Virus record (IMG/VR): IMGVR_UViG_3300006789_000163
Location: 1 to 23,587 of that record
Reading direction: 5' to 3' (one strand)
Source: a virus
Length of the DNA stretch: 23,587 bases
Shown here: one piece after another, positions 1,023 to 16,767 of the stretch
Position numbering within the stretch: the stretch's first letter is position 1
Layout of the letters: every line of letters begins with the position of its first letter
Notes under the pieces: generated by a model
What the model saw: only the letters and a program-made list of their open reading frames with translations
What the model was told of the DNA's origin: nothing
The model's database searches: none
Position numbers and translations under genes: made by a program

Positions 1023-1911
1023 CCATTATATCCCTTTCATCAGCGTATACAATTACACAACGACAGTTAACAACATTCTTAGCACCGCCTTTAGAATCAC
1101 CTGCAAATTCCATTTCAGCACCACCAATTAAAAAGTTTTCATCTATATCAACTGTTTGACCGCTTGCTTCTGCATGAGTTGGTCTAGTTCTATCATCACC
1201 AGTAGCCACCCACCGTTTTAACATTTTTGTTCCTAAATCTCTTTGCACCTGTAAGTGATACGAATGATTAGAGAAACCTGCTGCATTATGTGTTTCTGTT
1301 CTTGAAATAAGTGCTGCACGACTTCGGCTTATGGGTAAAAACTTGTCAGAAACTAATTTGGCAATCTGTGGTAATGTTAGATTGTCTGCCCTTCCTTGTT
1401 CTATAACTTGACTTATTCTGTTTGCCATTCTTTCTGTTATTCCGCTTAGTATTAATTGTCTTGAATTAAAGTATTTATTAACGACTGATTCAAAGTCTGT
1501 GCTTCTACCGAATACAAAGGCTTCTTGCTTCTTGTTATAGTATTTATCCTCATTCATTTTATACATTGCTAAAAACACTCTCCTGTAGTGTGACAACACC
1601 AATGGAAAAAAATCTTCTTGCAATGTTCTTTCTGCTATTGCGGGTTGGTATATACCGTACTCTTTGTAAAGGTGCATTTGCACTCTGACAAACTTACGAA
1701 AAAGTGTGTTGAGGTTTCTAAAAAACCTTTTTTCAAGATTGTTTCTAAGTGCAAGTTGTTTTCTTATTTCAGACCTAGTGTTAACCCTGCCCTGTCTAAA
1801 GGTATTTATTTGCTTTTTGTTGGGTGCCTGATTCAAACGCATACTCCAATCATCATTCAAATCAGGTCTTACTTGATAGTGGGTGTCCTTTTGGGAATAA
1901 ATCTGTGTCAT
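1018..1911 (-). CDS. Minor head protein, SPP1 gp7 / Mu gpF-like head morphogenesis protein
   Basis: About 297 aa. The C-terminal half carries the Mu gpF-like signature: an SRTETHNAAG helix, then W.ATGDDRTRPTHAEASGQ, a F.....MEFAGDS segment, and the terminal NCRC motif. In phages with portal plus gpF/gp7 pairs, a few copies sit inside the procapsid near the portal and help capsid assembly. The N-terminal half is helical and basic. I chose ATG at 1911; two in-frame GTG codons just upstream (1920, 1923) are alternatives, and neither has a clear Shine-Dalgarno. The gene overlaps the end of the portal gene by about 50 bases. It is the last gene of the leftward head operon. No protease, scaffold or major capsid gene follows. 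Confidence 0.85.
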   Translation of the reverse strand: MTQIYSQKDTHYQVRPDLNDDWSMRLNQAPNKKQINTFRQGRVNTRSEIRKQLALRNNLEKRFFRNLNTLFRKFVRVQMHLYKEYGIYQPAIAERTLQEDFFPLVLSHYRRVFLAMYKMNEDKYYNKKQEAFVFGRSTDFESVVNKYFNSRQLILSGITERMANRISQVIEQGRADNLTLPQIAKLVSDKFLPISRSRAALISRTETHNAAGFSNHSYHLQVQRDLGTKMLKRWVATGDDRTRPTHAEASGQTVDIDENFLIGGAEMEFAGDSKGGAKNVVNCRCVIVYADERDIMD

Positions 1912-3901
1912 GTTTGCCACCACTAAATCTTCCGCTAGACAAGGCTCTTAGAAAACTATTAACTCTTGCATATGCCCATTGGTCAGGTCCAGTTACATTA
2001 GGTCTTACAGATTGTGGGTTGGTTCTGTATGCACCAACACCTCTACGAAATACAGCTTCTAACATTCTAAGTGTTGCTCTTTTTGTAGGTTTATCACCAT
2101 GTTTTTCATTGTGCTTATCTACTTTCTTTTTAAGACCTTCTCTAACTTTGCCACTTAGTGCTTTTTCATCTTCAACAAGACCTATATGTTCTTCTAATTC
2201 AAACTCTTTTGATTCTTCTCTTTCAATTTGATTTCTTACTTTTCTTGACCAAGAAAAACCTGCATCACCACCCCACAATGCCCAAGCAATTCTGCCTGCA
2301 CTTGGGTAGCCTTTTTCACCTTGTTTGAAACCTTGTCCTTGTTTGTCTACTTCATGCCTACTAAAGAAACTGAACATACGCTTTACGGTGGATATTGATA
2401 GTCTTTCTTTGTTCATAAGTTGATTGGCTCTTGCGACCCCAACACTTGTACCACCACGCTTATATTTTCTTCTCCACTCTAAACCTCTAGCAGCTTCTTC
2501 TGCCATAGAGTTTGTAGGAACTGTATTAATGTCTGCTAAAGCCTTTTCTTCTTGTAATAGATAAGCTATTTCTTTATCTATATCTTCTTCATCTTGGTCA
2601 TCTCCATTATCGTAGTCATCTACATCTTCTTCATTAACTGGATTTTCAGGCTTTTCTACCTCTCCATCACCTAATGGGAATAATGTTGCTGATATGTATA
2701 AATCGTCTGCGCCATCTAAAGGTTCTAAGCCTAGTTGTTCTCTAGCTTCATTCCTTGTCATGATGCCCTCTCTAACAGCACTGGTCACATTTTCGTATGT
2801 TCTTTTAACCCTTTCACTCAATGCAGGTATTGCATCAATATCAAACTCTAATGTAAGACGATCATCAAATAGTGGTACTAACCACTCGTTAAGATCAGAT
2901 GCCATTTTTCTAAGGTGTGGGATTATCGTTTCTTCATATAGAGCAAGCCTTGCTTCTGCGACATTGGCATATGTCTGACTGTCAGGAACTCCCACAAGCT
3001 GACTTGGTACACCAAAGCACAATGCAATATCTGTAGCACTCATATGTTTAAGATTTAAAAAGTCCATATCTTTAGGACTTAGACCCATTTCTTTCCAATC
3101 AAAATCACCTTCAAGTAGCAAAGGTCTGCCTGCATTGTTTGCACCAGTAAACCTGTTGTTCATGTCAGTTATAAGTTGTTGTCTTTGTGATTCGCTTAGA
3201 TTGACCGCAAAACCTTGATCATCTTGTGGTTTAAATACAACAGCACCACTTGGTCTAGCACCGTTTTGTAAAAGATTTACATTGTGTTTACTAGACATAT
3301 TGAATTGATCTACTTCAACTGCTGCGGCACTCATGGGACTAAGACCATAATAATCGTCTAATGGATTCCATAACTTAATGTGTTTTAATTCGCTAAAACC
3401 ATTTTCTTGGTCTACAAGGTAAGTTTGTGCAACTCTGCCATTAACCATGTATTCATACTTTTCGGGTATAGGTTTTCCACTTCCTTTTATATTGATACGA
3501 TCAGGTCTTAATTGGTGTAGTTCTTTTGGTGAACCCATATCAGAACCAGTTTTTAAAATGTAAGCATTACCGCTTAATAATACATAACCAAATAGACTGT
3601 TAAAAAACTCACTATAAGATTGCAAAGGATTGGGTCTATTTAATAAATCAATCAACGGATGATCTTCTATTATTTGATCTTTTGCTTTAATAATAAAAGG
3701 TACTGCACTAGCACCTTTACTAATCTCATTTACACATCTGTAAACAATAGCGTTTTTAAGATAGCCCTCTTTTGCAAGGTCTTGGTATTTATAGCTCTTT
3801 GCTTCTTCAGTGCCTACACCAAAGTACCCCATCATGTTTGAATTTTTTTGTTCAACAGGTCGTCTGTTAAACAATCTTTGTAGAAATGTTTGATCTGCCA
3901 T
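1862..3901 (-). CDS. HK97-family portal protein with two extra C-terminal modules
   Basis: This 679-aa protein is far longer than usual for HK97-type portals (roughly 380-450 aa). Residues 1-410 are the portal proper: Y..C.N.IS..A...PF near 55-70, HPL..LLN.PN at 81-91, SGNAYI.K at 110-117, the HIK.WNP.DDYYGLSP run at 174-189, and FGVPSQL at 296-302. The portal forms the dodecameric DNA-entry ring at the capsid vertex. An acidic linker at 413-445 leads to module one (about 465-555; RHEVDKQGQG, YPSAGRIAW, LWGGDAG). Module two (about 585-677) has RRGVGAY, SVRP, QWAYARVNSF and GKHDTDL. I know similar modules as parts of other phage proteins, function unknown. TAATG overlap with the terminase. Confidence 0.9.
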   Translation of the reverse strand: MADQTFLQRLFNRRPVEQKNSNMMGYFGVGTEEAKSYKYQDLAKEGYLKNAIVYRCVNEISKGASAVPFIIKAKDQIIEDHPLIDLLNRPNPLQSYSEFFNSLFGYVLLSGNAYILKTGSDMGSPKELHQLRPDRINIKGSGKPIPEKYEYMVNGRVAQTYLVDQENGFSELKHIKLWNPLDDYYGLSPMSAAAVEVDQFNMSSKHNVNLLQNGARPSGAVVFKPQDDQGFAVNLSESQRQQLITDMNNRFTGANNAGRPLLLEGDFDWKEMGLSPKDMDFLNLKHMSATDIALCFGVPSQLVGVPDSQTYANVAEARLALYEETIIPHLRKMASDLNEWLVPLFDDRLTLEFDIDAIPALSERVKRTYENVTSAVREGIMTRNEAREQLGLEPLDGADDLYISATLFPLGDGEVEKPENPVNEEDVDDYDNGDDQDEEDIDKEIAYLLQEEKALADINTVPTNSMAEEAARGLEWRRKYKRGGTSVGVARANQLMNKERLSISTVKRMFSFFSRHEVDKQGQGFKQGEKGYPSAGRIAWALWGGDAGFSWSRKVRNQIEREESKEFELEEHIGLVEDEKALSGKVREGLKKKVDKHNEKHGDKPTKRATLRMLEAVFRRGVGAYRTNPQSVRPNVTGPDQWAYARVNSFLRALSSGRFSGGKHDTDLFPKGHPLSSKT

Positions 3902-5680: not shown

Positions 5681-5772
5681 AATTTATCCAAAAATTCTAA
5701 GTTATTCTCACTCTAAAATTGTAGTCTAGTTGAACTGGTACATTATGTCTACATTTAATTGTACATTTTGGG

Positions 5773-5800
5773 TTGCAACGATTTGATAATTGATTATAAT
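5773..5800 (+). promoter_or_regulatory. Sigma-70-type rightward promoter P1
   Basis: TTGCAA (5773-5778), a 16-base spacer and a perfect TATAAT (5795-5800), preceded by GG to give GGGTTG. The predicted transcript starts about 20 bases before the ATG at 5829. It lies in the 148-base gap between terS and the rightward genes. I could not place an equally good leftward promoter for terS there. Confidence 0.65.
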
Positions 5801-5806
5801 AATAAC

Positions 5807-5833
5807 TTATAAATTGATAGGAGATATTATGAA
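5807..5833 (+). repeat. Duplicated 27-nt leader/ribosome-binding region, copy 1
   Basis: These 27 bases, covering the leader, the AGGAGA Shine-Dalgarno and the ATG with two more bases, are identical to 16542-16568. Both copies follow a promoter of the same design, so they probably give similar expression to two otherwise unrelated small genes. Confidence 0.9.
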
Positions 5834-6017
5834 ACAAACAGAATGTAGAACAGTAGCTTTGCAATTCTATAAGAGAAGATTCCATAAGCTAGTACATCAA
5901 CGCGGTTATGTTGGTGCTATTGATTACATGGATTCCCATTACTTATTGTGGGGTGATCTCAAAAATGAAGTCTTTCAATGGTACGACTTTGAAATATTGG
6001 GGGTTAGCTATGGATAA
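5829..6017 (+). CDS. Small basic hypothetical protein, 62 aa
   Basis: ATG at 5829 follows a strong AGGAGA (5819-5824) and promoter P1, so this start is preferred over an in-frame ATG at 5790 that lies on top of the -10 box. The N-terminal half is basic (YKRRFHKLVHQRG), the C-terminal half acidic and aromatic (LLWGDLKNEVFQWYDFE). No domain is recognised. As the first gene after P1 it is likely expressed early; the next gene starts within its last codons. A small host-takeover protein is a guess from position only. Confidence 0.65.
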   Translation: MKQTECRTVALQFYKRRFHKLVHQRGYVGAIDYMDSHYLLWGDLKNEVFQWYDFEILGVSYG

Positions 6018-7411: not shown

Positions 7412-7635
7412 AATACACCATGAAAGGTGGTGCAATATTTGTTGGTTATGACAAGTATGAGATTGTAGAAGCAATTGCAGAATCTAGCTTTGCACCTACC
7501 AACACCACAGAACAGTTTATGCAGGAGTGTGCTAACCGTATCAAGATACAGTTTGGTTATAGGTTAGATTACTACAATGCAGATACTTTCATTGACGAGT
7601 TGCTTAAATATCAATTATTACAGGAGATCAAATAA
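7399..7635 (+). CDS. Small hypothetical protein in the amidoligase operon, 78 aa
   Basis: It starts 13 bases before the amidoligase stop and ends in a TAATG overlap with the next gene, so it is firmly embedded in the operon. An internal ATG at residue 8 (MKGGAIFVGY) is an alternative start. The protein is mixed alpha/beta with several aromatics (FGYRLDYYNADTF) and no Cys pairs beyond one Cys. I do not recognise a domain. Its position between ligase and cyclotransferase suggests an accessory or substrate-carrier role, which is inference only. Confidence 0.65.
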   Translation: MHKLKYTMKGGAIFVGYDKYEIVEAIAESSFAPTNTTEQFMQECANRIKIQFGYRLDYYNADTFIDELLKYQLLQEIK

Positions 7636-8108
7636 TGTTTTACTTTGCCTACGGTGCGAACCTTAATATCCGAAACATGAGTGTTAGATGCCCTAATGCT
7701 AAACCAATAGTGCCTATTACACTTAATGATATGCAGTTAGTGTTTAGGGGTGTTGCTGATATAGAACATAAACAAGGTGCAATATTGCATGGTGCTATAT
7801 GGGATATTACAGACGAGTGTGAAGCTAGTCTTGATATTTTTGAGGGTTATCCAAGTCTATACAGAAAAGAATACTTTACTGTAAAACTAAGCGATCAACT
7901 TGCAAAAGACTTTGGTGATACTGCTGATGTTTTAGTTTATCGTATGAATCGTGATGGTTATTCACCACCAAGTCATATGTACTATGAAACCATAAGACAG
8001 GGTTATAGGGATTTTAACTTAGACCCTACTAATCTTATACAAGCAAGGGACTCATTCCCTAACCATATGCACAAACAAGACATATGGCGATCTAAACAAT
8101 GGGGGTAA
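7635..8108 (+). CDS. Gamma-glutamylcyclotransferase-like (AIG2/GGCT) protein
   Basis: A 157-aa protein beginning MFYFAYGANL, a variant of the family's YGSNL substrate-binding loop (residues 5-10 are AYGANL). The candidate catalytic Glu is in IFEGYPSLYRKEYF (near residues 74-87), with a hydrophobic core strand around VLVYRM. GGCT-fold enzymes cleave gamma-glutamyl amides with release of 5-oxoproline. Being last in the amidoligase operon, it probably acts on the product of that ligase. The stop TAA at 8106-8108 lies in the loop of a perfect 7-bp inverted repeat (AATGGGG/CCCCATT) and touches repeat element R1. Confidence 0.8.
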   Translation: MFYFAYGANLNIRNMSVRCPNAKPIVPITLNDMQLVFRGVADIEHKQGAILHGAIWDITDECEASLDIFEGYPSLYRKEYFTVKLSDQLAKDFGDTADVLVYRMNRDGYSPPSHMYYETIRQGYRDFNLDPTNLIQARDSFPNHMHKQDIWRSKQWG

Positions 8109-8188
8109 AACCCCATTACTTCGTTAAGGGTTTACCATTGGTAGACCCGCAAGAAGTTCACCAAGAGCCTGTCAGACAACCAATTTCT
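8108..8188 (+). repeat. R1: 81-nt element, left arm of an inverted repeat around the IbrAB-ParB cassette
   Basis: It starts at the stop of the GGCT gene and matches the reverse complement of 11274-11354 without gaps (64 of 81 by hand count). The inner 19 bases, 8170-8188, are exact. It folds well: GGGTTTACC (8127-8135) against GGTAGACCC around an ATT loop, flanked by ACTTC...GAAGT. The overlapping AATGGGG/CCCCATT pair (8098-8117) adds a second hairpin. It may also help end convergent transcription, although no T-tract is present. Confidence 0.85.
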
Positions 8189-8715
8189 TAATCAAACTCC
8201 CTTTCTTTCGTATCGGGAACCCAACCTTTACTAAATTCACTACCGCTACCTTTTTCTGTCATAGGTGCAAAATCATATAAACGATCTATTTCTTCTTGTT
8301 CCATACCAAGCATTTTCTGAATCTTTTTATCATCGTAGTTATGTTTATCTCTCATTTCTCTAACAATGTTTGTCATAGACAAGATCATGTGATTACCCCT
8401 TGCCCTGTTGTGAACTATAGTTGCAACCATTTGTTGTGCTTGATCTACTTCTTTGCTTAGATAAACAACTGGAACATATCCATCTGTCATAGCAAAAATA
8501 TCTTCATCTGCTGAAACAGTCCATCTATGAAAACCATCCACTATCTCTCCACTTTGCCTTGCTACTATTGGTTGTGTCCAACCGCACAAAGTTATACTTG
8601 TTTTAAGAAGTTCTAATTCTACTGGTGCAACTTTGTTTGGGTTGTAATCATTTGCTTTAAGTTTATCTCTATGCACCCATTCCATATTATTTATAGGTTG
8701 TTTATTCTTGCCCAT
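8188..8715 (-). CDS. ParB-like nuclease-domain protein, IbrB-like
   Basis: 175 aa from ATG 8715, preceded by GAGG/GGAAAG and overlapping the IbrA-like stop by 14 bases; the long in-frame extension into that gene is an artefact. The ParB/sulfiredoxin-fold core is clear: W....KL..NDYNPN (13-27), GW.QPIVA (45-52) and VDGFHRW (59-65), in place of the GERR-type nucleotide box. A helical C-terminus (LGMEQEEIDRLYDF) follows. In E. coli prophages, IbrB pairs with the PAPS-reductase-like IbrA and affects prophage-linked gene expression; the biochemistry is unsettled. Gene order and spacing here match that pair. The stop codon abuts the exact core of repeat R1. Confidence 0.8.
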   Translation of the reverse strand: MGKNKQPINNMEWVHRDKLKANDYNPNKVAPVELELLKTSITLCGWTQPIVARQSGEIVDGFHRWTVSADEDIFAMTDGYVPVVYLSKEVDQAQQMVATIVHNRARGNHMILSMTNIVREMRDKHNYDDKKIQKMLGMEQEEIDRLYDFAPMTEKGSGSEFSKGWVPDTKEREFD

Positions 8716-9916
8716 GTCTTTCCGCCTCATATTTCTTTTTTTGTGATTCTTGTTGTTTAGGATCAGTTGTAAACAATGGTTGTTTACGACCTTTATAATC
8801 ACCTCGCATTGCAATACGAAGAAGATACTCCCAACCAACCCCTGTTACATAATGGTGAGTTTTTAAAATCGGCTCAGAAGTTTTTTGATAGTGTGCATCT
8901 ATTTGTTCTTGTATTCTTTTTGCGACCTCTGATCTATAAGGTTGTGGATGTTTGCCAATATAGTATTTTACAAACTGTAACCATGTCATGTCTTTGGGTT
9001 TTTCTGGAAGTCCACCAAAACCATAGAGTTCAGTATTTGCATATCTTGCTGCTGTTGCTGCACCTGCTACCCTTGTTTGCATTTTTTCCCATATATCGGG
9101 AAAAGCTACAGAGTATTGCCAAAGACCACGCATGGGTTCTTCACCATATGGGGGTGCGCACCTTTGTTGTAAATGTGTAAGACCCAATCTTTCTAAGATG
9201 TCATATGTGGTGTTGTAATCCCATTCAAACTTTTGCGGTAGTGTCCAAACATCAACAGTTTTCATGTCATATATTGGGCATACCTTAAATACATTCCCTA
9301 ATGCAGTTTTAGACTTTAAAGAAATTATGTAATCTTCATATCTTTTACCATCACCAGTTTGCAAGATGGTTCTGTATCTAGTCAAAGATTCTTCTGACCG
9401 TATTCCCATAATAACCCCAACTTCTCCCCAGTCCTGTGGGGGGAAAAGCAAACCATTACACTCAGGAACAGTTGGTCTTTGATTAACTTCTGACGGGAAA
9501 ACATCTAAATCATCACCAGTTATTACACAATCATAATCAGGCATAGGGCGAACCCATTTATCTTTATCTTCAGGTGCCCACGGATACCAATAGGGTTCTG
9601 ACCTTGAGCAACCGTTTCTATGTTTCACTGGTATGCACAACCAATTCATTTTGACTTCGGGAAGATCAGCTACACGCTTCACATAATCTATTGTTTCATA
9701 TGGGATTGCTTCTTCATCAAAGAAGTAAACTTCTAGGGGTAGTTTGTTTCTTTCTTTTGCTACTTCTAATGTTAGATTAAGACATACTGTAGAATCTTTG
9801 CCACCACTAAACATAACCACGACATTATCAAAAATATCATAAGTTCGTCTTATGCGTTCCAGTGCAAGTTCATAGACATTTTGCTCTATTTCCTTTTTTT
9901 TATGTACTTTTGACAT
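8702..9916 (-). CDS. PAPS reductase-like PP-loop protein, IbrA-like
   Basis: 404 aa with the PP-loop ATP-pyrophosphatase motif SGGKDST (37-43) after a VVVMF strand, as in PAPS reductase, DndC and related adenylating enzymes. Other landmarks are FFDEEAIPYE (65-74), VGVIMGIRSEES, VCPIYDM and QRCAPPYGEEPMRG with a conserved Cys, and a basic C-terminus. The length and C-terminal half fit IbrA-type proteins rather than assimilatory CysH, which is shorter and ends in an ECG(L)H-type Cys. It probably adenylates a substrate or transfers sulfur, target unknown. The Shine-Dalgarno AGAGGA lies in repeat R4. It is coupled to the IbrB-like gene downstream. Confidence 0.85.
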   Translation of the reverse strand: MSKVHKKKEIEQNVYELALERIRRTYDIFDNVVVMFSGGKDSTVCLNLTLEVAKERNKLPLEVYFFDEEAIPYETIDYVKRVADLPEVKMNWLCIPVKHRNGCSRSEPYWYPWAPEDKDKWVRPMPDYDCVITGDDLDVFPSEVNQRPTVPECNGLLFPPQDWGEVGVIMGIRSEESLTRYRTILQTGDGKRYEDYIISLKSKTALGNVFKVCPIYDMKTVDVWTLPQKFEWDYNTTYDILERLGLTHLQQRCAPPYGEEPMRGLWQYSVAFPDIWEKMQTRVAGAATAARYANTELYGFGGLPEKPKDMTWLQFVKYYIGKHPQPYRSEVAKRIQEQIDAHYQKTSEPILKTHHYVTGVGWEYLLRIAMRGDYKGRKQPLFTTDPKQQESQKKKYEAERHGQE

Positions 9917-9924
9917 AATTTAGT

Positions 9925-9982
9925 CCTCTGACATACGGTCTGTGAGCATCTTGAGGGTAGGTTAATACCCTAAGACCTACCC
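9925..9982 (-). repeat. R4: member of the post-stop repeat family with an 8-bp hairpin
   Basis: On the minus strand, 9966 down to 9925 aligns without gaps to 16089-16130 (33 of 42 by hand count), including ATTAACCTACCC and AAGATGCTC. A perfect stem GGGTAGGT (9955-9962) and ACCTACCC (9975-9982) spans the stop codon of the cupin gene. Its 3' end supplies the Shine-Dalgarno (TCAGAGGA) of the IbrA-like gene. Confidence 0.75.
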
Positions 9983-10669
9983 TTTTCCGTGATTTATGTA
10001 GGTTCTGTTTAACATTGGGTGATCTATATCTGTGGGCCCAAAGTCTGAATCGGGGTGATATGCAATTATGTCCATATAGTTTTCTGCAGTCCTAAAGCTA
10101 TGAACTTCACCCTCTTCTAAACAAAACATCATGCCTTTAGATAAATCTTCTTCCCATCCCTTTTGTTTGCCATCAGGCTTTTGGAATGCTTCGCCTTTAC
10201 CACCTATTACAATGCCCATTCTTATACTTGGGTGTAGATGTTGGGTTTGATCTATACCCATTGGAAAGTGCAAATAGTTTAAACATGGGTCGCCCAGGCG
10301 GGGTGGCATAATTAGCAAACTATCAGTACAACCATCAATGTAAGACAACCTGCCGTTTTTTTCAGATTTACCAACCATATCAATACCTCTAAAACCATAC
10401 CTCACAATGACAAATAGCTGTCCATCTTCCATCATTTCAATATGGGTATTATCTTGAATTGGGGTTTTAAGACTAAAAAAGTCATTTTCGCTTATTGTCC
10501 ATGTATCTTCAGAATGAATAACAAAAGTACCTTTAGTGCAAAACCCGTACATATTGCCTATTGTTTCTTCCATTACATAATTATCAGATACAGAAATCAT
10601 TTTTGTCGGATACATGGTATCTGTCATATCAATAATTTCTCCGTGCGTAGGTTCAGGTATTAAGATCAT
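9977..10669 (-). CDS. Cupin-fold protein of unknown function
   Basis: 230 aa with two weak cupin repeats. The C-terminal one is clearer: LHFPMGIDQTQHLHPSIRMG (133-152) provides HxH (H144, H146), and GMMFCLEEGEVHSF (179-192) provides the second-motif His (H190), so a metal site is likely. The usual Glu after HxH is replaced by Arg150. The N-terminal repeat (YGFCTKGTFVIHSEDTW) lacks an evident metal set. The start overlaps the ParB-like stop (ATGA). Cupins include dioxygenases, isomerases and binding proteins; no substrate can be named. Its place between ParB-like and IbrA/IbrB-like genes suggests work on the same substrate. Confidence 0.7.
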   Translation of the reverse strand: MILIPEPTHGEIIDMTDTMYPTKMISVSDNYVMEETIGNMYGFCTKGTFVIHSEDTWTISENDFFSLKTPIQDNTHIEMMEDGQLFVIVRYGFRGIDMVGKSEKNGRLSYIDGCTDSLLIMPPRLGDPCLNYLHFPMGIDQTQHLHPSIRMGIVIGGKGEAFQKPDGKQKGWEEDLSKGMMFCLEEGEVHSFRTAENYMDIIAYHPDSDFGPTDIDHPMLNRTYINHGKG

Positions 10670-11256
10670 TTGTAGTTCCTCACTAAATATAAAAAAGCAT
10701 TTGATTTTGTTTGTAGTTCCTTGTCATCTCTTATTTTTTCAAGAAGATTCATTACCTCATCTCTTTCTTCTGTTTCAAAATAAAACATTAAGGGTACTTG
10801 GTTTGTAAGTTCGCTTGCTGAATAACCAACAGAATCTACTGAAACATCATCATCAATCATATCATCTAAAGACTCAACAAATGACTCTGAATCATCAAAA
10901 GTAAAACCTGCTACTTCCATGTTCATTTCTTTAAGTTGTGATAATTCTTTATCTAAAAAATCTTGTTCCCATTGCGAATATTCTGCAACTTTATTATCTG
11001 CTAATCTATATGCGTTTATACTTTCGGGTTTGCCTTTATAGATAGTGCAAGGCATTTCAGTTAATCCAAGTTTCTTTGCTGCCAACAATCTTGTGTGACC
11101 TGCAACTATGACATTGTTTTCATCAATACATATAACTTGTTGTATACCATGATTGTTAAATGACTTAGCAACTTCATTTACAGCTTGCTCAGATATAACT
11201 CTTGGGTTTTGAAAGTAAGGTATTAGTTCATCAACCTTTTTTGTTACTATGTCCAT
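10666..11256 (-). CDS. ParB-like N-terminal domain protein, second copy in the cassette
   Basis: 196 aa. Residues 1-90 are a ParB/Srx nuclease-type domain: V.ELIPY..NPR (8-19), a helix ending HGIQQVI (36-42), and VIVAGHTRLLAAKKLG (49-64), the GHTR box being the nucleotide site. The C-terminus is acidic (SLDDMIDDDVSVDS) and then hydrophobic-charged. Phages carry such proteins beside methyltransferases or IbrA-like enzymes; partition activity is unlikely without ParA. No Shine-Dalgarno precedes the ATG at 11256, and promoter P4 ends ten bases before it, so the mRNA is probably leaderless. It heads the leftward four-gene cassette. Confidence 0.8.
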   Translation of the reverse strand: MDIVTKKVDELIPYFQNPRVISEQAVNEVAKSFNNHGIQQVICIDENNVIVAGHTRLLAAKKLGLTEMPCTIYKGKPESINAYRLADNKVAEYSQWEQDFLDKELSQLKEMNMEVAGFTFDDSESFVESLDDMIDDDVSVDSVGYSASELTNQVPLMFYFETEERDEVMNLLEKIRDDKELQTKSNAFLYLVRNYK

Positions 11257-11265
11257 ATTGGGTTA

Positions 11266-11293
11266 ATAATAACAGAAATTGGTTGTCTGACAA
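11266..11293 (-). promoter_or_regulatory. Leftward promoter P4 for the ParB-cupin-IbrAB cassette
   Basis: On the minus strand, TTGTCA (11293-11288), a 16-base spacer and TATTAT (11271-11266). The -35 is half of the dyad TTGTC-A-GACAA inside repeat R2, which could be an operator. Expected initiation is within a few bases of the ATG at 11256, and no Shine-Dalgarno is seen, consistent with a leaderless transcript. Confidence 0.5.
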
Positions 11294-11354
11294 GCTGTCT
11301 ATTTACTTCTTGCGGTAAGGTTAATGGTAAACCTTTAACGGAGTTATGGGGTTT
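11274..11354 (-). repeat. R2: 81-nt element, right arm of the inverted repeat
   Basis: It begins on the base after the primase-helicase stop and runs leftward. It matches R1 (8108-8188) as an inverted copy, 64 of 81 without gaps, and R3 (16067-16128) at 41 of 62 by hand count. The inner 19 bases are identical to R1. It can form AAGGTT...AACCTT, and it contains the -35 and spacer of promoter P4. Confidence 0.85.
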
Positions 11355-13067
11355 CTAGCGATTTTGCCATTCTTCAGGTATTTCAAAATCACTGGTAATT
11401 TTGTGTTCTCTAAAAATTCTACGGTTCATATCAAATTTAAATGTGGCTTCACCTATTTTGCCGTATAAATCTTGCTCTCTAATTTTTCTTGTTAAGACCT
11501 GTGTAGTGTTTTCATCAAAGTCTCTATGAATTGTAAGAATACAATCAGATTGGTTTGACCAATGACTAGCACCACTAATGTCATATGAAGATGGGGCAGA
11601 ATAACCACCGTCATTATTTTTTTGTAATTTTGTGGGATGTGCAACAACCCAAACAACTATGTCATGTACACGGGCAAACCTTTTACATTTAGATATAAAA
11701 TCTCTTATATGCTCATCTTCTCTTTGATTACCCTGTCTTACAGCACTTACTTCGTTGTAAGGGTCTATTACTATTCCATTTATGCCGTATTTAAGTACGC
11801 TTGCTTTTGCAATTTCTAAAATATAATCAATGTTAGGAACTGTGTCTTGCGTTTCAATAAAGTAAAAGTGTTTGTGTAACCATTCCATAGCTTGTTCTAA
11901 TTCATACTTGCTCATTCTATTTTGTTCGCCAATATCAAATGGTTTTTCGTTATACATTTGCACCATTCTTCTTATGTGCATTGATGTGCTATGTTCGGGT
12001 GAGAATAAAGCAAAAGACCATTCTTGTGATTGTGCTAACTTAATTAACATTTGATCTAAAAAATATGATTTGCCGTGATTAGGTACACCAGTTATACAAT
12101 GAAAAGTACCTTTCATAATTTTGTAGATTTCATCAAGGCTTGGATAACCTACTTCCACTGGTTTCACATAGTTGCCATTGTAGAGATCAATTACACTTCC
12201 TGCATATTGGTTTGTCGTGTATAAACCGTCTACTGGATATGGGACTGCTTGCTCAATCACTTGTTTTAATTTTTCTGTACCGTGTTTAACCAATACTTCA
12301 TTTGCATCTTTGCAGTCATTTGGAATCTGTACATACCAACATATATCTTTGCCGAATCTATGTAGCAATTCATCATGTAAACTTTTACCTGCTTGATCGT
12401 TGTCAGTAAATATAATTATGTTTTTTGCTTTTAAACTACAATTTTCCAAAGCCTTAAACCTTGCATCATCTTTTTTAAATTTAGCTTCTTTTGGTGCGCC
12501 ATCGGGTAATGACACTGCATTGGTATAACCAACCTCATATAAGGAAAGCACATCCATTTCACCCTCAACAAAAATTACTGTTTCAGTGTCTTTAGCATTT
12601 TGGAAATTAAATAAAGTCCTTTCGGCATTTGGTGATTGTTTAAATTTTTTATCTCTAGTTCTGTATTTAATGTTTACAACTTCATTGTTGTCATTAAGGT
12701 ATGGAAAAGCCAACCAACTACCCTCAACATATATATCAAGAGCATCTACTGTATCTTTATGTATGCCGCGCTTTGCGAAAAAAGAATACATACTTTCTGT
12801 CTTACTTGGTTCGCTTGGTGTTGTTGGTCTTACATATATGCTTTTCTTTACATAGTTATTTTGATAATTATTTCCACCTGTACCACCAGTCCAATCACAA
12901 TGATGGCATAACCAAACAGCACTTCCATCATCATTAATGCTTACCGAAAGTGGGTTATCATGTGAATCGTGGGGTGGTTGGCATTGTGGACATTTGGTTT
13001 TTTTATTTCCAACTGTTGTGTTTTTGAGACTAATACCGTTATCAGCTAATTTACTTTCTACATTCAT
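11355..13067 (-). CDS. Bifunctional primase-helicase (T7 gp4 / Twinkle type)
   Basis: 570 aa with the full domain order. The zinc finger is CPQC (26-29) and CHHC (54-57). The Toprim domain has FVEGEMD (166-172) and TDNDQAG (221-227), then KDANE (253-257). The RecA-like DnaB helicase has Walker A GVPNHGKS (327-334), Walker B GIVIDPYNE and the VAHPTKLQK motif. It would unwind the replication fork and make primers for the phage or host polymerase. GCAGGA lies about ten bases before the ATG at 13067, inside the end of the initiator gene. It is the third gene of the leftward replication operon; R2 follows directly after its stop. Confidence 0.95.
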   Translation of the reverse strand: MNVESKLADNGISLKNTTVGNKKTKCPQCQPPHDSHDNPLSVSINDDGSAVWLCHHCDWTGGTGGNNYQNNYVKKSIYVRPTTPSEPSKTESMYSFFAKRGIHKDTVDALDIYVEGSWLAFPYLNDNNEVVNIKYRTRDKKFKQSPNAERTLFNFQNAKDTETVIFVEGEMDVLSLYEVGYTNAVSLPDGAPKEAKFKKDDARFKALENCSLKAKNIIIFTDNDQAGKSLHDELLHRFGKDICWYVQIPNDCKDANEVLVKHGTEKLKQVIEQAVPYPVDGLYTTNQYAGSVIDLYNGNYVKPVEVGYPSLDEIYKIMKGTFHCITGVPNHGKSYFLDQMLIKLAQSQEWSFALFSPEHSTSMHIRRMVQMYNEKPFDIGEQNRMSKYELEQAMEWLHKHFYFIETQDTVPNIDYILEIAKASVLKYGINGIVIDPYNEVSAVRQGNQREDEHIRDFISKCKRFARVHDIVVWVVAHPTKLQKNNDGGYSAPSSYDISGASHWSNQSDCILTIHRDFDENTTQVLTRKIREQDLYGKIGEATFKFDMNRRIFREHKITSDFEIPEEWQNR

Positions 13068-13072
13068 AATAT

Positions 13073-13672
13073 TTATCCTGCTATGTTATTCAAATTACTT
13101 TTTTTCCATTTTACATTTTCAAAATCAATAAACCTTTTTTGACTTAACCATGTTGAGCCATGTGGTATAAATCTTTCTTCCGTGTTATTACTTTTGACTT
13201 GTTGTGCAAAGATGATAGTAGCTTTCATTAATTTATCAAAGTCGTAATCTTTTACTGCAATCTTGAATTTTTGCATGGTTGCATACTTATTAATTTTTCT
13301 AGGATAGACTTTCCAAAATTTTTCAAAATCCACACTATATTTATCTTTTGTATCTTCTTTAGTATTAGTGGTCGTGGGTGTCCTAACGGGTAGGACATCA
13401 GTGTCCACACTAAGATAATATCTATTACTAGTACCAGTTCTATGTTCTATGTTTAAAAAATTATTTTCTTGTAGATATTTTAATGATCTGCGAATTGTAC
13501 GATCTGAAACGCCAACTAATTTTCCTAAATGTTTTTCACTTGGATAACAACTGTTATGTTCATCACAGTAATTTGCTAATAATATTAATACGCATTTAGT
13601 AGTTGGTGTGTCGCAAGTTTGTTTAATTGACCATGAAAGGGCTTGAATACTCATTGGCACATATTGTACCAT
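13073..13672 (-). CDS. Helix-turn-helix replication initiation protein (lambda O / DnaD-like)
   Basis: 199 aa from ATG 13672, or 193 aa from ATG 13654. Residues about 8-85 form a winged helix (LLANYCDEHNSCYPS, LVGVSDRTIRRSLKYLQ), typical of phage replication initiators. A polar Thr-rich linker leads to a C-terminal domain with FEKFWKVYPRKINK (about 116-129) and FIPHGSTWLSQKRF, seen in lambda O-like and replisome-organiser proteins. It likely binds an origin and loads the primase-helicase encoded directly downstream. A near-perfect dyad TGGCACA-TAT-TGTACCA (13655-13671) covers the region between the two candidate starts and may control translation or bind a regulator. Confidence 0.75.
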   Translation of the reverse strand: MVQYVPMSIQALSWSIKQTCDTPTTKCVLILLANYCDEHNSCYPSEKHLGKLVGVSDRTIRRSLKYLQENNFLNIEHRTGTSNRYYLSVDTDVLPVRTPTTTNTKEDTKDKYSVDFEKFWKVYPRKINKYATMQKFKIAVKDYDFDKLMKATIIFAQQVKSNNTEERFIPHGSTWLSQKRFIDFENVKWKKSNLNNIAG

Positions 13673-13681
13673 TTCATTTAT

Positions 13682-13894
13682 TTATTCAAGTGGTAAATTG
13701 TAAAAATCGTTTGCAGTTACCTCGCCATTTGTAGATTTGTAAATTACATTCATTTCCTGAAGTCTTGGAATCCTATGCCCACGACACCATTTAGCTAATG
13801 CACTATGCGAGATAACCATTCCTTGTTCATTGCATATATCTAAGAACTCGGCATGGGTTAATTGTTCTTTTTTTAACCATTCGTTGATTTTCAT
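13682..13894 (-). CDS. Small HTH repressor (YdaS/Cro-like), 70 aa
   Basis: A compact helix-turn-helix protein: WLKKEQLTHAEFLDIC, then VISHSALAKWCRGHRIPRL with the recognition helix SALAKWCRG (about residues 30-38). The C-terminal VTANDFYNL is typical of small Cro/YdaS-type phage regulators. The ATG at 13894 has no Shine-Dalgarno. It lies seven bases past a leftward extended -10, so the mRNA is probably leaderless, like lambda cI from PRM. It heads the replication operon and faces the recombination operon across a dyad overlapping the rightward -35, so it likely represses that promoter and possibly itself. Confidence 0.75.
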   Translation of the reverse strand: MKINEWLKKEQLTHAEFLDICNEQGMVISHSALAKWCRGHRIPRLQEMNVIYKSTNGEVTANDFYNLPLE

Positions 13895-13900
13895 AAATCC

Positions 13901-13946
13901 AGTCTAGCACAATAAGGGTTGATTGAAACCCATTTTGTGTCATAAT
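13901..13946. promoter_or_regulatory. Divergent promoter and operator region of the genetic switch
   Basis: Rightward P5 is TTGATT (13919-13924), 16-base spacer, CATAAT (13941-13946), followed by GAGGTG (13960-13965) before the ATG at 13972. Leftward, TGC-TAGACT (-10 at 13906-13901, extended by TG) has a weak -35 TTTCAA 16 bases upstream. The inverted repeat GGGTT-N6-AACCC (13916-13931) overlaps both -35 regions and is a good candidate operator for the HTH protein at 13682-13894. Confidence 0.6.
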
Positions 13947-13971
13947 AGGTGCATATTTTGAGGTGCATAGT

Positions 13972-14769
13972 ATGAAAAATAATCCGTTTGAACAACATGG
14001 GGTTGAATATCTAAGCCCAACATCTATAAACAAATTCAGAAAAAATCCTGCTAAATGGTTAGTAAATATTGCAGGGTATAAAGATAGATTTTATTCGCCT
14101 GCTATGAGTTACGGTACTTGCATTGAGCAAGGAATTACACACGGTTGTTTTGACCATAATGCCAGTGTTGATGATTGCATAAATGCAACTAATCTTGAAT
14201 ATAAAAAGATATACGACAAAGTTATAGAAACAAAAGCTGATTATGACTTTGATGCTTGTGCAAAAAAAAGAGAAATGACAAGAGATACCATTGAAGCTAT
14301 GTTGCCATTGTTTAGATCGTTTGGCATACCTACAGATGCACAATTAAGAGTTGAACATGAGATTGAAGATTTGCCTATTCCTATGATTGGATACATTGAT
14401 TTGTTATACAAAGATTGTGTAAGAGATATAAAAACAACTGGTATACAACCCAAACCAAAAAAAGATTATCAGTATCAATTATCATTTTATGCAAAAGCTA
14501 CTGGTGTGACACCTATAGTTGATTGCATATATTCCCTAAAAACAAAAAAAGAATTACATAGTTTTGAGGTTTCAGATATAGAGCAAAACTGGAACGAAAT
14601 AAAAAGAATTGCTAACAAGATGATGAGATTGCTTTCATTGTCTAGCGATATTAGTGAAGTATGTTATTTGTCATGTCTTGAACCCGACATATCAAATGAA
14701 GATTTTACTAATCAATGGGGTACTAATGAAATCATTGGTGCTAAAAAATTATTTTTTGAAAGAGGATAA
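13972..14769 (+). CDS. PD-(D/E)XK nuclease, RecB/Cas4-like exonuclease
   Basis: 265 aa. The start is ATG 13972, six bases after GAGGTG; GTG at 13963 is inside that ribosome site and unlikely. The N-terminal LSPTSINKFRKNPAKW (14-29) is the usual first helix of PDDEXK_1 nucleases. The active-site core is GYIDLLY (140-146, D143) and VRDIKTT (150-156, D152/K154), followed by the Q-motif YQYQLSFYA (167-175). Such proteins resect double-stranded ends to give single strands. Directly downstream is an ERF annealing protein, so the two should form a Red-like recombination pair. No Cas4 cysteine cluster is seen. Confidence 0.85.
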   Translation: MKNNPFEQHGVEYLSPTSINKFRKNPAKWLVNIAGYKDRFYSPAMSYGTCIEQGITHGCFDHNASVDDCINATNLEYKKIYDKVIETKADYDFDACAKKREMTRDTIEAMLPLFRSFGIPTDAQLRVEHEIEDLPIPMIGYIDLLYKDCVRDIKTTGIQPKPKKDYQYQLSFYAKATGVTPIVDCIYSLKTKKELHSFEVSDIEQNWNEIKRIANKMMRLLSLSSDISEVCYLSCLEPDISNEDFTNQWGTNEIIGAKKLFFERG

Positions 14770-14770
14770 A

Positions 14771-15433
14771 ATGAACGATAACTTAATTAACGCTTTAGTA
14801 AAAGCACAAAACGAAATAGATAATGCACATAAAGATGCAAAGAACCCTTACTTTAAGAGCAACTATGCAACCCTTGAAAGTGTAATAGAAGCTGTGAAAC
14901 AACCGTTGTTAGATCACGGAATATTATTTTTACAAAAATCAGACCTTAATGAGACAGGTGTTTGTATTGAAACTGTTTTTTACGGACATGGTGGTGAGTT
15001 GCCTACTGGTAAACTTCATGTACCTGCAGACAAACAAGACCCACAAGGCTACGGTAGTGCCTTAACCTATGCTAGAAGATATAGTCTTGCTATGGCTTGT
15101 GGTATTGGCTCGGGTATAAAAGTAGAAGAAACGGGGTTTGATGATGATGGTAATAGTGCTACCGATTCATACAATGCTAAGAAAATGAAAAGTGGTTTTG
15201 TTTTCAGAAATGAAAAAAATGTGCCGATTAATGCTTTTATGACTCCTGCTGATTACATACAAGCACTTAGAAATGCTTGGGGTAAAGTAGATGATGAGAA
15301 AATTAAACAGACAATGTTTGATAATAATAGTGAAGAAATAGAGAAAGCATATAACTCTATTGCAGACAAAGACCAAACACTTAAAGACTCATACAATACT
15401 TTAATTGATATGCACACCAAGAAAGAGTCATGA
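14771..15433 (+). CDS. erf: ERF-family single-strand annealing protein
   Basis: 220 aa from ATG 14771, one base after the nuclease stop, with AGAGG upstream. The N-terminal domain shows the ERF signature KNPYFKSNYATLESV (24-38), then a glycine turn and GYGSALTYARRYSLAMACGI (about 95-114). ERF proteins form rings that anneal complementary single strands during phage DNA circularisation or recombination. The C-terminal 90 residues are charged and variable, as usual. It is coupled to the next gene (ATGA overlap). It pairs functionally with the upstream nuclease and the SSB-like protein two genes on. Confidence 0.9.
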   Translation: MNDNLINALVKAQNEIDNAHKDAKNPYFKSNYATLESVIEAVKQPLLDHGILFLQKSDLNETGVCIETVFYGHGGELPTGKLHVPADKQDPQGYGSALTYARRYSLAMACGIGSGIKVEETGFDDDGNSATDSYNAKKMKSGFVFRNEKNVPINAFMTPADYIQALRNAWGKVDDEKIKQTMFDNNSEEIEKAYNSIADKDQTLKDSYNTLIDMHTKKES

Positions 15434-15702
15434 AGAAAAAAGATTTAACATTAGATGATTGTGTATTTCTTTGTATGAACAAAGGCGGTTGGTGGACTTT
15501 TTGGGAACTACAAGCCATGATTAAAGAGAACACTGGTAAGTTTTATGGTGAACCCACCATATCAGCATCAATAAGAAATTTGCGAAAAGAACCTGCAAGA
15601 CTCAAATATGGGTTATCAATGGTTGATGAGGTTGTAATTAAAAAACGAATAGAAAATGGCAAAGGCTATAAATATAAATTAGCGAGGATTGAAACAATAT
15701 GA
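15430..15702 (+). CDS. Putative winged-helix protein, 90 aa
   Basis: Start and stop both overlap neighbours by four bases (ATGA), so it belongs to the recombination operon. The sequence looks like a small winged helix: TLDDCVFLCMNKGGWWTFWELQ, a helix MIKENTG, the recognition-like helix EPTISASIRNLRKE (about 41-54), and a basic hairpin VVIKKRIENGKGYKYKLA. It may bind DNA as a regulator or architectural helper. I do not recognise a named family; similar small proteins occur beside ERF and SSB genes in phages. Confidence 0.65.
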   Translation: MKKKDLTLDDCVFLCMNKGGWWTFWELQAMIKENTGKFYGEPTISASIRNLRKEPARLKYGLSMVDEVVIKKRIENGKGYKYKLARIETI

Positions 15703-16064
15703 GTGATCAAAAAGAATACGATAATGAGTTGCAAGGTTTTTTATGGCATGAAAATAATGCAGTAATTCATAGAAAAGGTAGCCTTACTATCAATGGTGAA
15801 AAAAAATATGTAGCTATTGTTGAAAGCAAGAATGACAAAGGTGATGCCAAGTATGAACTTATGATGAGTGTTGGACTTGTACACACTAATTCCGAAGAAG
15901 AAAAAATGAAACCAACTTCTCCCGATATAGGTGGCAAGGTGACTATTGATGGCACTGTTTACAAATTTGGTGGTTGGAAAAAAGAAAGCAAAGATGGTGC
16001 GCCATATACAAGTTGCAGTCTTAGAATTGACCAACCCGTCAATAAAGAGAAAGTGCCATTTTAG
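15699..16064 (+). CDS. Putative single-stranded DNA-binding (OB-fold-like) protein
   Basis: 121 aa, beta-rich. It has alternating strands (KGSLTINGEKKYVAIVESKN, ELMMSVGLV), then PDIGGKVTIDGTVYKFGGWKK resembling the G-x-W turn of DUF736-like and small SSB-like phage proteins, and a short C-terminal tail KVPF. The position after nuclease, ERF and winged-helix genes fits a single-strand binding role in recombination and replication. The OB fold is inferred from pattern and context; the acidic tail of bacterial SSB is missing. The stop TAG is followed after two bases by repeat R3. Confidence 0.55.
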   Translation: MSDQKEYDNELQGFLWHENNAVIHRKGSLTINGEKKYVAIVESKNDKGDAKYELMMSVGLVHTNSEEEKMKPTSPDIGGKVTIDGTVYKFGGWKKESKDGAPYTSCSLRIDQPVNKEKVPF

Positions 16065-16066
16065 TG

Positions 16067-16130
16067 ATAACTTCGTTAATGCTAGACCATTAACCTACCC
16101 AAAAGATGCTCTTAGAAGCTACATCAGAGG
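16067..16130 (+). repeat. R3: post-stop repeat family member
   Basis: It aligns without gaps to R2 over 62 bases (41 identities) and to R4 over 42 (33 identities, hand count). Conserved blocks are ATAACT-CGTTAA, ACCATTAACCT, AAGA, TAGA and TCAGA. GTTAAT...ATTAAC can form a 6-bp stem. It starts two bases after the SSB-like stop and precedes the HNH gene by 26 bases. Confidence 0.75.
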
Positions 16131-16156
16131 TTGATTTTTTGATATTTTAGATAGAA

Positions 16157-16504
16157 ATGGCTAAAAAATACGAAAATGCAAAACACTTAGCTTGGATAAG
16201 AACCCTGCCGTGTCTTATAGAAAAAGCAGGTTATTACGCTCATAGTGGTGATATTCAAGCACACCATTTAATGAAACCATATGACGGTGTAAGGGGTATG
16301 TCTTTAAAAAGCAATGACAGAAATGTTATACCCTTGTGTCAATTTCACCATCAAGAACTTCATACAAAGTATGGTGACGAGTTTGCATTTTTTAGGGCAT
16401 ACGGTTTACCCGAAACATTTGGACAAACTTCTGCAAAAATTTATTTTGAAACAAAACAAGATTTACAACCACCAATAAGAGATGATGATGATTTACCCTT
16501 TTAG
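16157..16504 (+). CDS. HNH-type nuclease, DUF968/Ref-like
   Basis: 115 aa with the features of the DUF968/Ref-type HNH fold: an N-terminal helix ending WIRTLPCL, IQAHHLMK (33-40), the central GMSLKSNDRNVIPLC (47-61), and FHHQELHTKYGDEFAFF (63-79) carrying H64/H65 and H69. Cys19 and Cys61 may help bind structural zinc. Phage proteins of this type nick or cut DNA during recombination; P1 Ref requires RecA. The ATG at 16157 lacks a clear Shine-Dalgarno. It follows R3 and closes the recombination operon. Its stop lies in a small dyad, ACCCT-TTT-AGGGT, that runs into promoter P3. Confidence 0.75.
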   Translation: MAKKYENAKHLAWIRTLPCLIEKAGYYAHSGDIQAHHLMKPYDGVRGMSLKSNDRNVIPLCQFHHQELHTKYGDEFAFFRAYGLPETFGQTSAKIYFETKQDLQPPIRDDDDLPF

Positions 16505-16506
16505 GG

Positions 16507-16534
16507 TTGCAATAATAATATAAGTTGTTAAAAT
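16507..16534 (+). promoter_or_regulatory. Sigma-70-type rightward promoter P3
   Basis: TTGCAA (16507-16512), a 16-base spacer and TAAAAT (16529-16534), preceded by AGGG. It has the same -35, spacer length and downstream leader as P1. It overlaps the ACCCT/AGGGT dyad at 16495-16507, which may be a weak hairpin for the end of the HNH gene. Confidence 0.6.
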
Positions 16535-16541
16535 AACCCTA

Positions 16542-16568
16542 TTATAAATTGATAGGAGATATTATGAA
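16542..16568 (+). repeat. Duplicated 27-nt leader/ribosome-binding region, copy 2
   Basis: Identical over 27 bases to 5807-5833, including AGGAGA and the ATG. The identity stops soon after the start codon, so the repeat is regulatory rather than a duplicated gene. Confidence 0.9.
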
Positions 16569-16767
16569 TTCATCAGAAAATGCAAGAGTCCAAGATTTTA
16601 TATATGGGCATGAGTACGGTACTGTTATATATAACTTTATTGTGCAAAACAAAGATAAGTTTAGTTATCTTAAATTGCTTCATATGCAACTTAAATCTAG
16701 GGGTTGGCTTACAGCAAAACAAATACAAGTTGTTTTGAGAATGAGAGAGGCAAACTACAATGGATAA
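16564..16767 (+). CDS. Small hypothetical protein, 67 aa
   Basis: The ATG at 16564 sits at ideal distance from AGGAGA in the duplicated leader, so it is preferred over the in-frame ATG at 16549. The product is aromatic and basic (FIYGHEYGTVIYNFIVQNKDKF, then LKSRGWLTAKQIQVVLRMRE), ending in what looks like a small helical DNA-binding segment. Comparable short proteins with a RGWLT.KQ motif are common in marine phages, function unknown. It is first in the P3 operon and overlaps the next gene by eight bases. Confidence 0.7.
   Translation: MNSSENARVQDFIYGHEYGTVIYNFIVQNKDKFSYLKLLHMQLKSRGWLTAKQIQVVLRMREANYNG

Follow-up and report, generated by a model that had tools for sequence, protein, structure and literature searches.

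Short non-coding repeats at gene borders are familiar from bacteria and phages alike. The REP/BIME palindromes of enterobacteria lie behind stop codons and can form hairpins of constant sequence, and RAYT transposases spread them; lambdoid phages have boundary sequences between modules that provide short homology at gene borders. T4-like phages reportedly carry PeSL (promoter early stem-loop) cassettes, which are said to have been described by Arbiol et al. in 2010 and Comeau et al. in 2014. As described in part in one account (PMC4503421), these are repeated intergenic cassettes that combine a stem-loop with a promoter-like part and are tied to shuffling at gene borders. The stoperators of Cluster A mycobacteriophages are 13-bp repressor-binding sites that reach about 30 per genome (PMC6550527). 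Here we describe a repeat in the viral record IMGVR_UViG_3300006789_000163, whose entire 23,587 bases form the stretch that we analysed (the window). Its four members R1 to R4 are copies of one non-coding intergenic element of about 76 bp with a common origin, and relatives of the phage add a fifth site, R5. The element family is real and apparently undescribed, and within the scope of our searches it is confined to a single clade of marine tailed phages, all uncultured.

A likeness to the stem-loop elements at gene borders of other phages had been proposed from the sequence of the window, and among known systems PeSLs do come closest, but two features that define them are not general here. 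Like a PeSL, the element lies between open reading frames (ORFs) and recurs within a genome, with four copies in the window and five in the related genome G001. A host-type early promoter is not general here, since only two of the five sites (R2 and R3) have a promoter-like -10 box. Neither is there a conserved stem-loop terminator: R1, R3 and R4 have a hairpin bias with no common stem and few terminators. In addition the copies are few, the phages that carry them are not T4-like, and shuffling is seen for the element more than for genes; at the element borders R1 is exchanged and the portal end differs at R5, with synteny otherwise kept. Stoperators share with the element a dispersed arrangement in predominantly one orientation relative to transcription; they differ in that our element is 76 bp long, has at most five copies and has no known binding protein. 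REP/BIME sequences resemble it as short non-coding repeats 3' of stop codons that are able to form hairpins, whereas the hairpin sequence varies here and no RAYT-type gene was seen, none having been sought. The combination of border homology with a phage annealing protein recalls lambdoid boundaries and the relaxed recombination by Rad52-like phage recombinases (PMC3945230), with the difference that in our case a single sequence is repeated at several borders within a genome.

Four copies of one element in the window

R1 to R4 can be aligned gap-free across 76 columns, and so can the 26 distinct copies collected from the window and its relatives. The ungapped local matches given in the original prediction, 64/81 for R1 with R2 and 33/42 for R3 with R4, were reproduced exactly, and the best ungapped segment of R2 and R3 is 31/40, shorter than the predicted 41/62. 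The kinship of the four is also evident from a comparison with dinucleotide shuffles, in which all six pairs outscore 400 of 400. Each copy begins 0-8 bases from a stop codon or, for R4, overlaps it, and runs in the same direction as that gene, again as predicted (Table 1). The upstream neighbour of R1 is a GGACT-like gene (7635-8108, stop codon 8106-8108), and the 3' limit of R1 is the stop codon of a convergent ParB-like gene (8188-8736). A profile search, made with a profile built from 15 copies and enlarged later, revealed no fifth copy above noise within the window.

Table 1. Copies of the element and other features of the window
Feature	Position	Strand	Remarks
R1	8113..8188	+	profile match 64.6 bits; strong hairpin GGGTTTACC/GGTAGACCC
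R4	9915..9990	-	profile match 53.7 bits; overlaps stop codon of cupin-like gene 9977-10669
R2	11274..11349	-	profile match 55.5 bits; 3' of stop codon of primase/helicase gene 11355-13067
R3	16065..16140	+	profile match 63.3 bits; between SSB-like gene 15699-16064 (after stop codon) and HNH-like gene 16157-16504
Likely -10 box TATTAT of R2 promoter-like site	11266..11271	-	just downstream of element; position read from sequence
Extended -10-like TGnTATTTT behind R3	16140..16148	+	conserved in five phages; position read from sequence
PD-(D/E)XK nuclease-like gene	13963..14769	+	Pfam PF12705, 23.6 bits, barely over cut-off 22
ERF-family single-strand annealing protein gene	14772..15433	+	ATG at 14772; Pfam PF04404, 74 bits, over ORF 14654-15433

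Copies at orthologous borders of related phages

The family is, as was originally suggested, a phage-borne non-coding repeat at gene borders, and it extends beyond the window: in about ten related marine phages the profile search found the same element, placed at the orthologous borders. Most of these copies score 30-66 bits, and the best copies of the distant relatives (L028, L069, L071, L033, L072, L031 and L060) reach about 31 to 52 bits. For comparison, reversed sequence gave 8 bits and eight dinucleotide shuffles of 1.37 Mb a maximum of 11.9 bits with the enlarged profile. The two outcomes that would have spoken against the prediction, a lack of copies elsewhere and scores no better than those of shuffled sequence, were thus not observed. 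Up to five intergenic copies per genome were present among the 31 whole records searched.

Five sites are known, and at each the copy lies 3' of a stop codon and is oriented like the gene that this codon ends. R1 is found between convergent genes, R2 between the primase and a ParB-like gene, R3 between the SSB-like and HNH genes, and R4 between the cupin-like and PAPS-reductase-like genes. In L074 and L072, R5 follows the portal gene. G009 has copies at the R1 and R4 sites, and G013 has a weak copy behind the primase. The portal protein is about 120 aa shorter in the two phages in which an R5 copy lies directly behind its gene (558 aa in L074, 15953-17629; 561 aa in L072, 16703-18388) than in the window (679 aa, 1862-3901).

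Many relatives lack the copy at one or more sites and have abutting genes, ordinary short spacers or terminators there instead. R2 is absent from L029, L030, L034, L042 and L070. R3 is absent from L029, L034 and L072, where the SSB and HNH genes abut, and R4 from L030 and L042, where the flanking genes abut or nearly so. Ordinary sequence or terminators occupy the R1 site in L070-L072, L034 and L079. In L069 the R1-site copy sits 3' of a complete, ordinary terminator, which suggests insertion rather than replacement.

The window itself belongs to a marine tailed phage that has genes for terminase, portal, primase/helicase, the ERF annealing protein, a PD-(D/E)XK nuclease, and SSB-like and HNH-like proteins. 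Its terminase is less than 60% identical to the closest deposited relatives, and a near-identical second contig matches 14 kb of the window at 99.97%. R3 gave 0 matches to deposited phages, either as DNA or as translated peptide, and a pattern scan for the element across 84,980 species genomes, done as a host search, returned nothing. R1 and R2, in inverted orientation, flank a block (8188-11256) with two ParB-like genes, a PAPS-reductase-like gene with DUF3440 and a cupin-like gene, which is syntenic in many relatives.

Exchange of copies

When the window is compared to G009 at the R1 locus, identity is 62% for the upstream gene, 91% for the element and 77% for the downstream gene; the corresponding values for the closer relative L010 are 84, 77 and 86%. 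The near-identity of G009 to the window (L146 (G009):2560-2800, minus strand) covers R1 plus the last codons of the upstream gene. These alignments show that diverged phages have exchanged R1 as a short tract.

R2 of the window resembles R1 of its own genome (59/76) more than R2 of L010 (49/76) or of L011 (43/76), with sign tests giving p = 0.026 and 0.002 respectively, and in a tree the R2 copies are not monophyletic. The idea that the repeat travels with gene cassettes has partial support: the element has been gained, lost and exchanged, but most relatives keep the order of the adjoining genes. Concerted evolution of all sites is not general.

Folding and terminator tests

A hairpin kept while its sequence drifts had been proposed for the four copies. 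The stems of 9 bp in R1, 6 bp in R2 and 8 bp in R4 were recovered, while that of R3 measures 7 bp (GTTAATG/CATTAAC) and not 6. We found the 5' half of the element to be hairpin-prone, with a mean z of -1.7 compared to -0.2 in control windows. This tendency is strong at R1, moderate at R3 and R4, and mostly nil at R2 and R5; the proposal stands for three of the five sites, in different stem registers, and not for R2 and R5, whose copies mostly have no notable hairpin. The 3' half, with the most conserved word, TCAGA, is unstructured (mean z 0.17).

A kept RNA fold is unsupported because RNAalifold gave no consensus structure (energy 0), the named stems show no covariation and R2 and R5 are mostly hairpin-free. 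Covariation in the best shared stem (columns 11-17 with 24-30) did not exceed that of shuffles, and an RNA family with a common fold is rejected. Rfam had no match in the window at E up to 1, and neither a tRNA nor a tmRNA is present there. Most copies are not intrinsic terminators, having no G+C-rich hairpin directly before a U-run. The R1-site copy of L031 (14934-15009), like that of L060, is a strong intrinsic terminator on the minus strand, ACCACCCTC...GAGGGTGGTTTTT, acquired or original.

Three known signals were set aside by eye: boxA of lambda or rrn, since the word GCTCTTA in R3 and some R4 is not kept by most copies; integron attC, for its wrong core polarity; and loxP, for its missing second arm.

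Local use of the 3' end

The 3' end of the element carries a -35-like TTGTCA. In R2 this forms TTGTCA-N16-TATTAT, a promoter-like arrangement in front of the ParB-like gene 10666-11256 in which the element supplies the -35-like part. At a spacing of 15-17 bases, a -10-like box follows behind R2 in 8 of the 9 copies tested. Behind R3 it is found in 5 of 5 copies, with random windows reaching the score in 8% of cases. A promoter in every copy is ruled out, R2 and R3 alone being promoter-like. In phages that have no R2, -35- and -10-like words around the primase stop codon still precede the ParB-like gene, and thus it seems that at this border the element has assumed the function of the -35 box. 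In R4 the conserved word at the 3' end probably serves as ribosome-binding site (AGAGGA) for the PAPS-reductase-like gene 8702-9916. R1 and R5 have no visible use of this kind for the downstream gene.

Interpretation

We favor, with a probability of about 50%, the reading that the element is a PeSL-like mobile gene-border cassette, a set of short homology patches that are moved by annealing recombination and whose ends are put to local use. The copies would serve as short homology patches at gene borders, on which the phage's own annealing genes (ERF, PD-(D/E)XK nuclease and SSB-like) would convert, gain or lose copies between borders and between phages, leaving the genes undamaged. Efficient action on diverged sequences has been reported for the Erf protein of phage D3 (PMC3945230). 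The ERF annealing protein, the PD-(D/E)XK nuclease and the SSB-like protein of this phage could be the drivers of the exchange. Once a copy is placed, its 5' half would give the upstream transcript a 3'-terminal hairpin, most clearly at R1. Its 3' end would give the downstream gene a -35 box at R2, the stretch before an extended -10 box at R3 and a ribosome-binding site at R4. The varied use of this end by site suggests a border patch with locally co-opted ends and no single fixed function. We infer that the element may work like the PeSL cassettes of T4-like phages, as an analog and not as a proven member.

A number of observations weigh against this reading. R1, R4 and R5 have no acceptable -10 box, so a promoter role is not general. 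The closeness of R2 to R1 is not significant when compared to the orthologs in L069, L033 and L071. R3 and R4 copies mostly track the phylogeny of their sites and, in close relatives, evolve no faster than their flanks; as these copies follow their sites, proof of movement is limited to R1, with R2 as a suggested case. Filled and empty sites, with diverged flanks, were compared by eye and had neither terminal inverted repeats nor a target-site duplication, and no mobilising gene was seen, transposases other than tyrosine integrase not having been sought. An integrase or tyrosine-recombinase site was rejected, no tyrosine integrase (PF00589) being present in 17 records, some of them fragments. 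The copies have no common fold and no covariation, and the terminators that match those at the R1 site of relatives are only the R1-site copies of L031 and L060. Orientation is informative at the four co-directional sites only (chance 1 in 16). Finally, this reading does not account for the conservation of unpaired blocks such as AAGATGCTCATAGA and TGTCAGA.

Each copy might instead be a compound DNA site for one phage regulator that blocks or tunes transcription at the border in a stoperator-like manner. Sequence and spacing are conserved gap-free where RNA folding is not, an imperfect palindrome, GTTAA/TTAAC (columns 11-15 and 26-30), has about 85% of its cells paired, all copies are oriented with the upstream gene, and the phage encodes helix-turn-helix (HTH) proteins. 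We nevertheless consider such a site unlikely: four or five 76-bp copies per genome contrast with the far more numerous 13-bp stoperators (up to about 30; PMC6550527), the first conserved block is missing from R4 and R5 of L072, and R2 copies are 45-73% alike between relatives with flanks that are 62-85% alike. No integrase was found in the 17 records and therefore lysogeny is not indicated. It is rather improbable that the copies are descent-related hairpins of the 3' untranslated region that end or protect the upstream transcript, as terminators or REP-like stabilisers, because R2 and R5 mostly have no notable hairpin, the stem beside the T-run is missing from most copies, TCAGA falls in the unstructured half and L069 already has a full terminator upstream of its copy. 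What speaks for them comes from the R1 site, where the hairpin has -18.7 kcal/mol in the window and -26.7 in L011, a classical terminator stands between these convergent genes in several relatives and the L031 copy is a good terminator (-18.5). Moreover, two of the few differences between the window and G009 compensate each other in the outer stem (ACTTC/GAAGT to ACCTC/GAGGC).

Descent from, or pairing with, the antisense strand of a CHASE2-cyclase gene in related phages appears very improbable. A profile made from intergenic copies only matches the antisense of a membrane segment in L011 (16927-16991) with 25.0 bits (E 1.5e-5) and the L008 ortholog with 16.7, where shuffles reach at most 11.9, and predicted duplexes exceed shuffled ones for most copies. 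Against this, the score drops in other cyclase orthologs and the window does not have the gene at that place. The L008 copy fits its own cyclase in 35/76 positions and that of L011 in 42/76, which argues against co-evolution. Synonymous sites there are not unusually conserved, and a functional antisense to the cyclase is rejected on both counts; the match in L011 may be due to chance or reflect a fossil origin. A short coding repeat or pseudogene has a negligible probability, even though one frame, with the reading ...FVNARPLTYPKDALRSYIRG in R3 and similar ones in the other three, is open through all four copies of the window. Over 32 copies all six frames contain stops (16 of 32 in the best frame and 26 to 32 in the other five), which refutes a coding reading; conservation has no codon periodicity and that frame has no start codon in R2-R4. 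It is conceivable, and in our estimate quite unlikely, that we are looking at a new class of phage cis-element, 76 bp long with fixed internal spacing, recognised by one phage factor at several borders, spread by annealing and possibly derived from the cyclase antisense.

The element bears on the old question of how phages shuffle genes at borders without breaking them, which becomes testable outside T4-like and lambdoid phages with a border repeat of one clade, filled and empty sites, one clear exchange and an annealing system in the same genome. It also calls for caution, as the conservation of a block between phage genes does not by itself imply a folded RNA.

A second repeat family is present in the window. 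Two leader-like copies (5766-5854 and 16500-16589; about 79% over 71 bases) contain TTATAAATTGATAGGAGATATTATGAA and precede two unrelated small genes.

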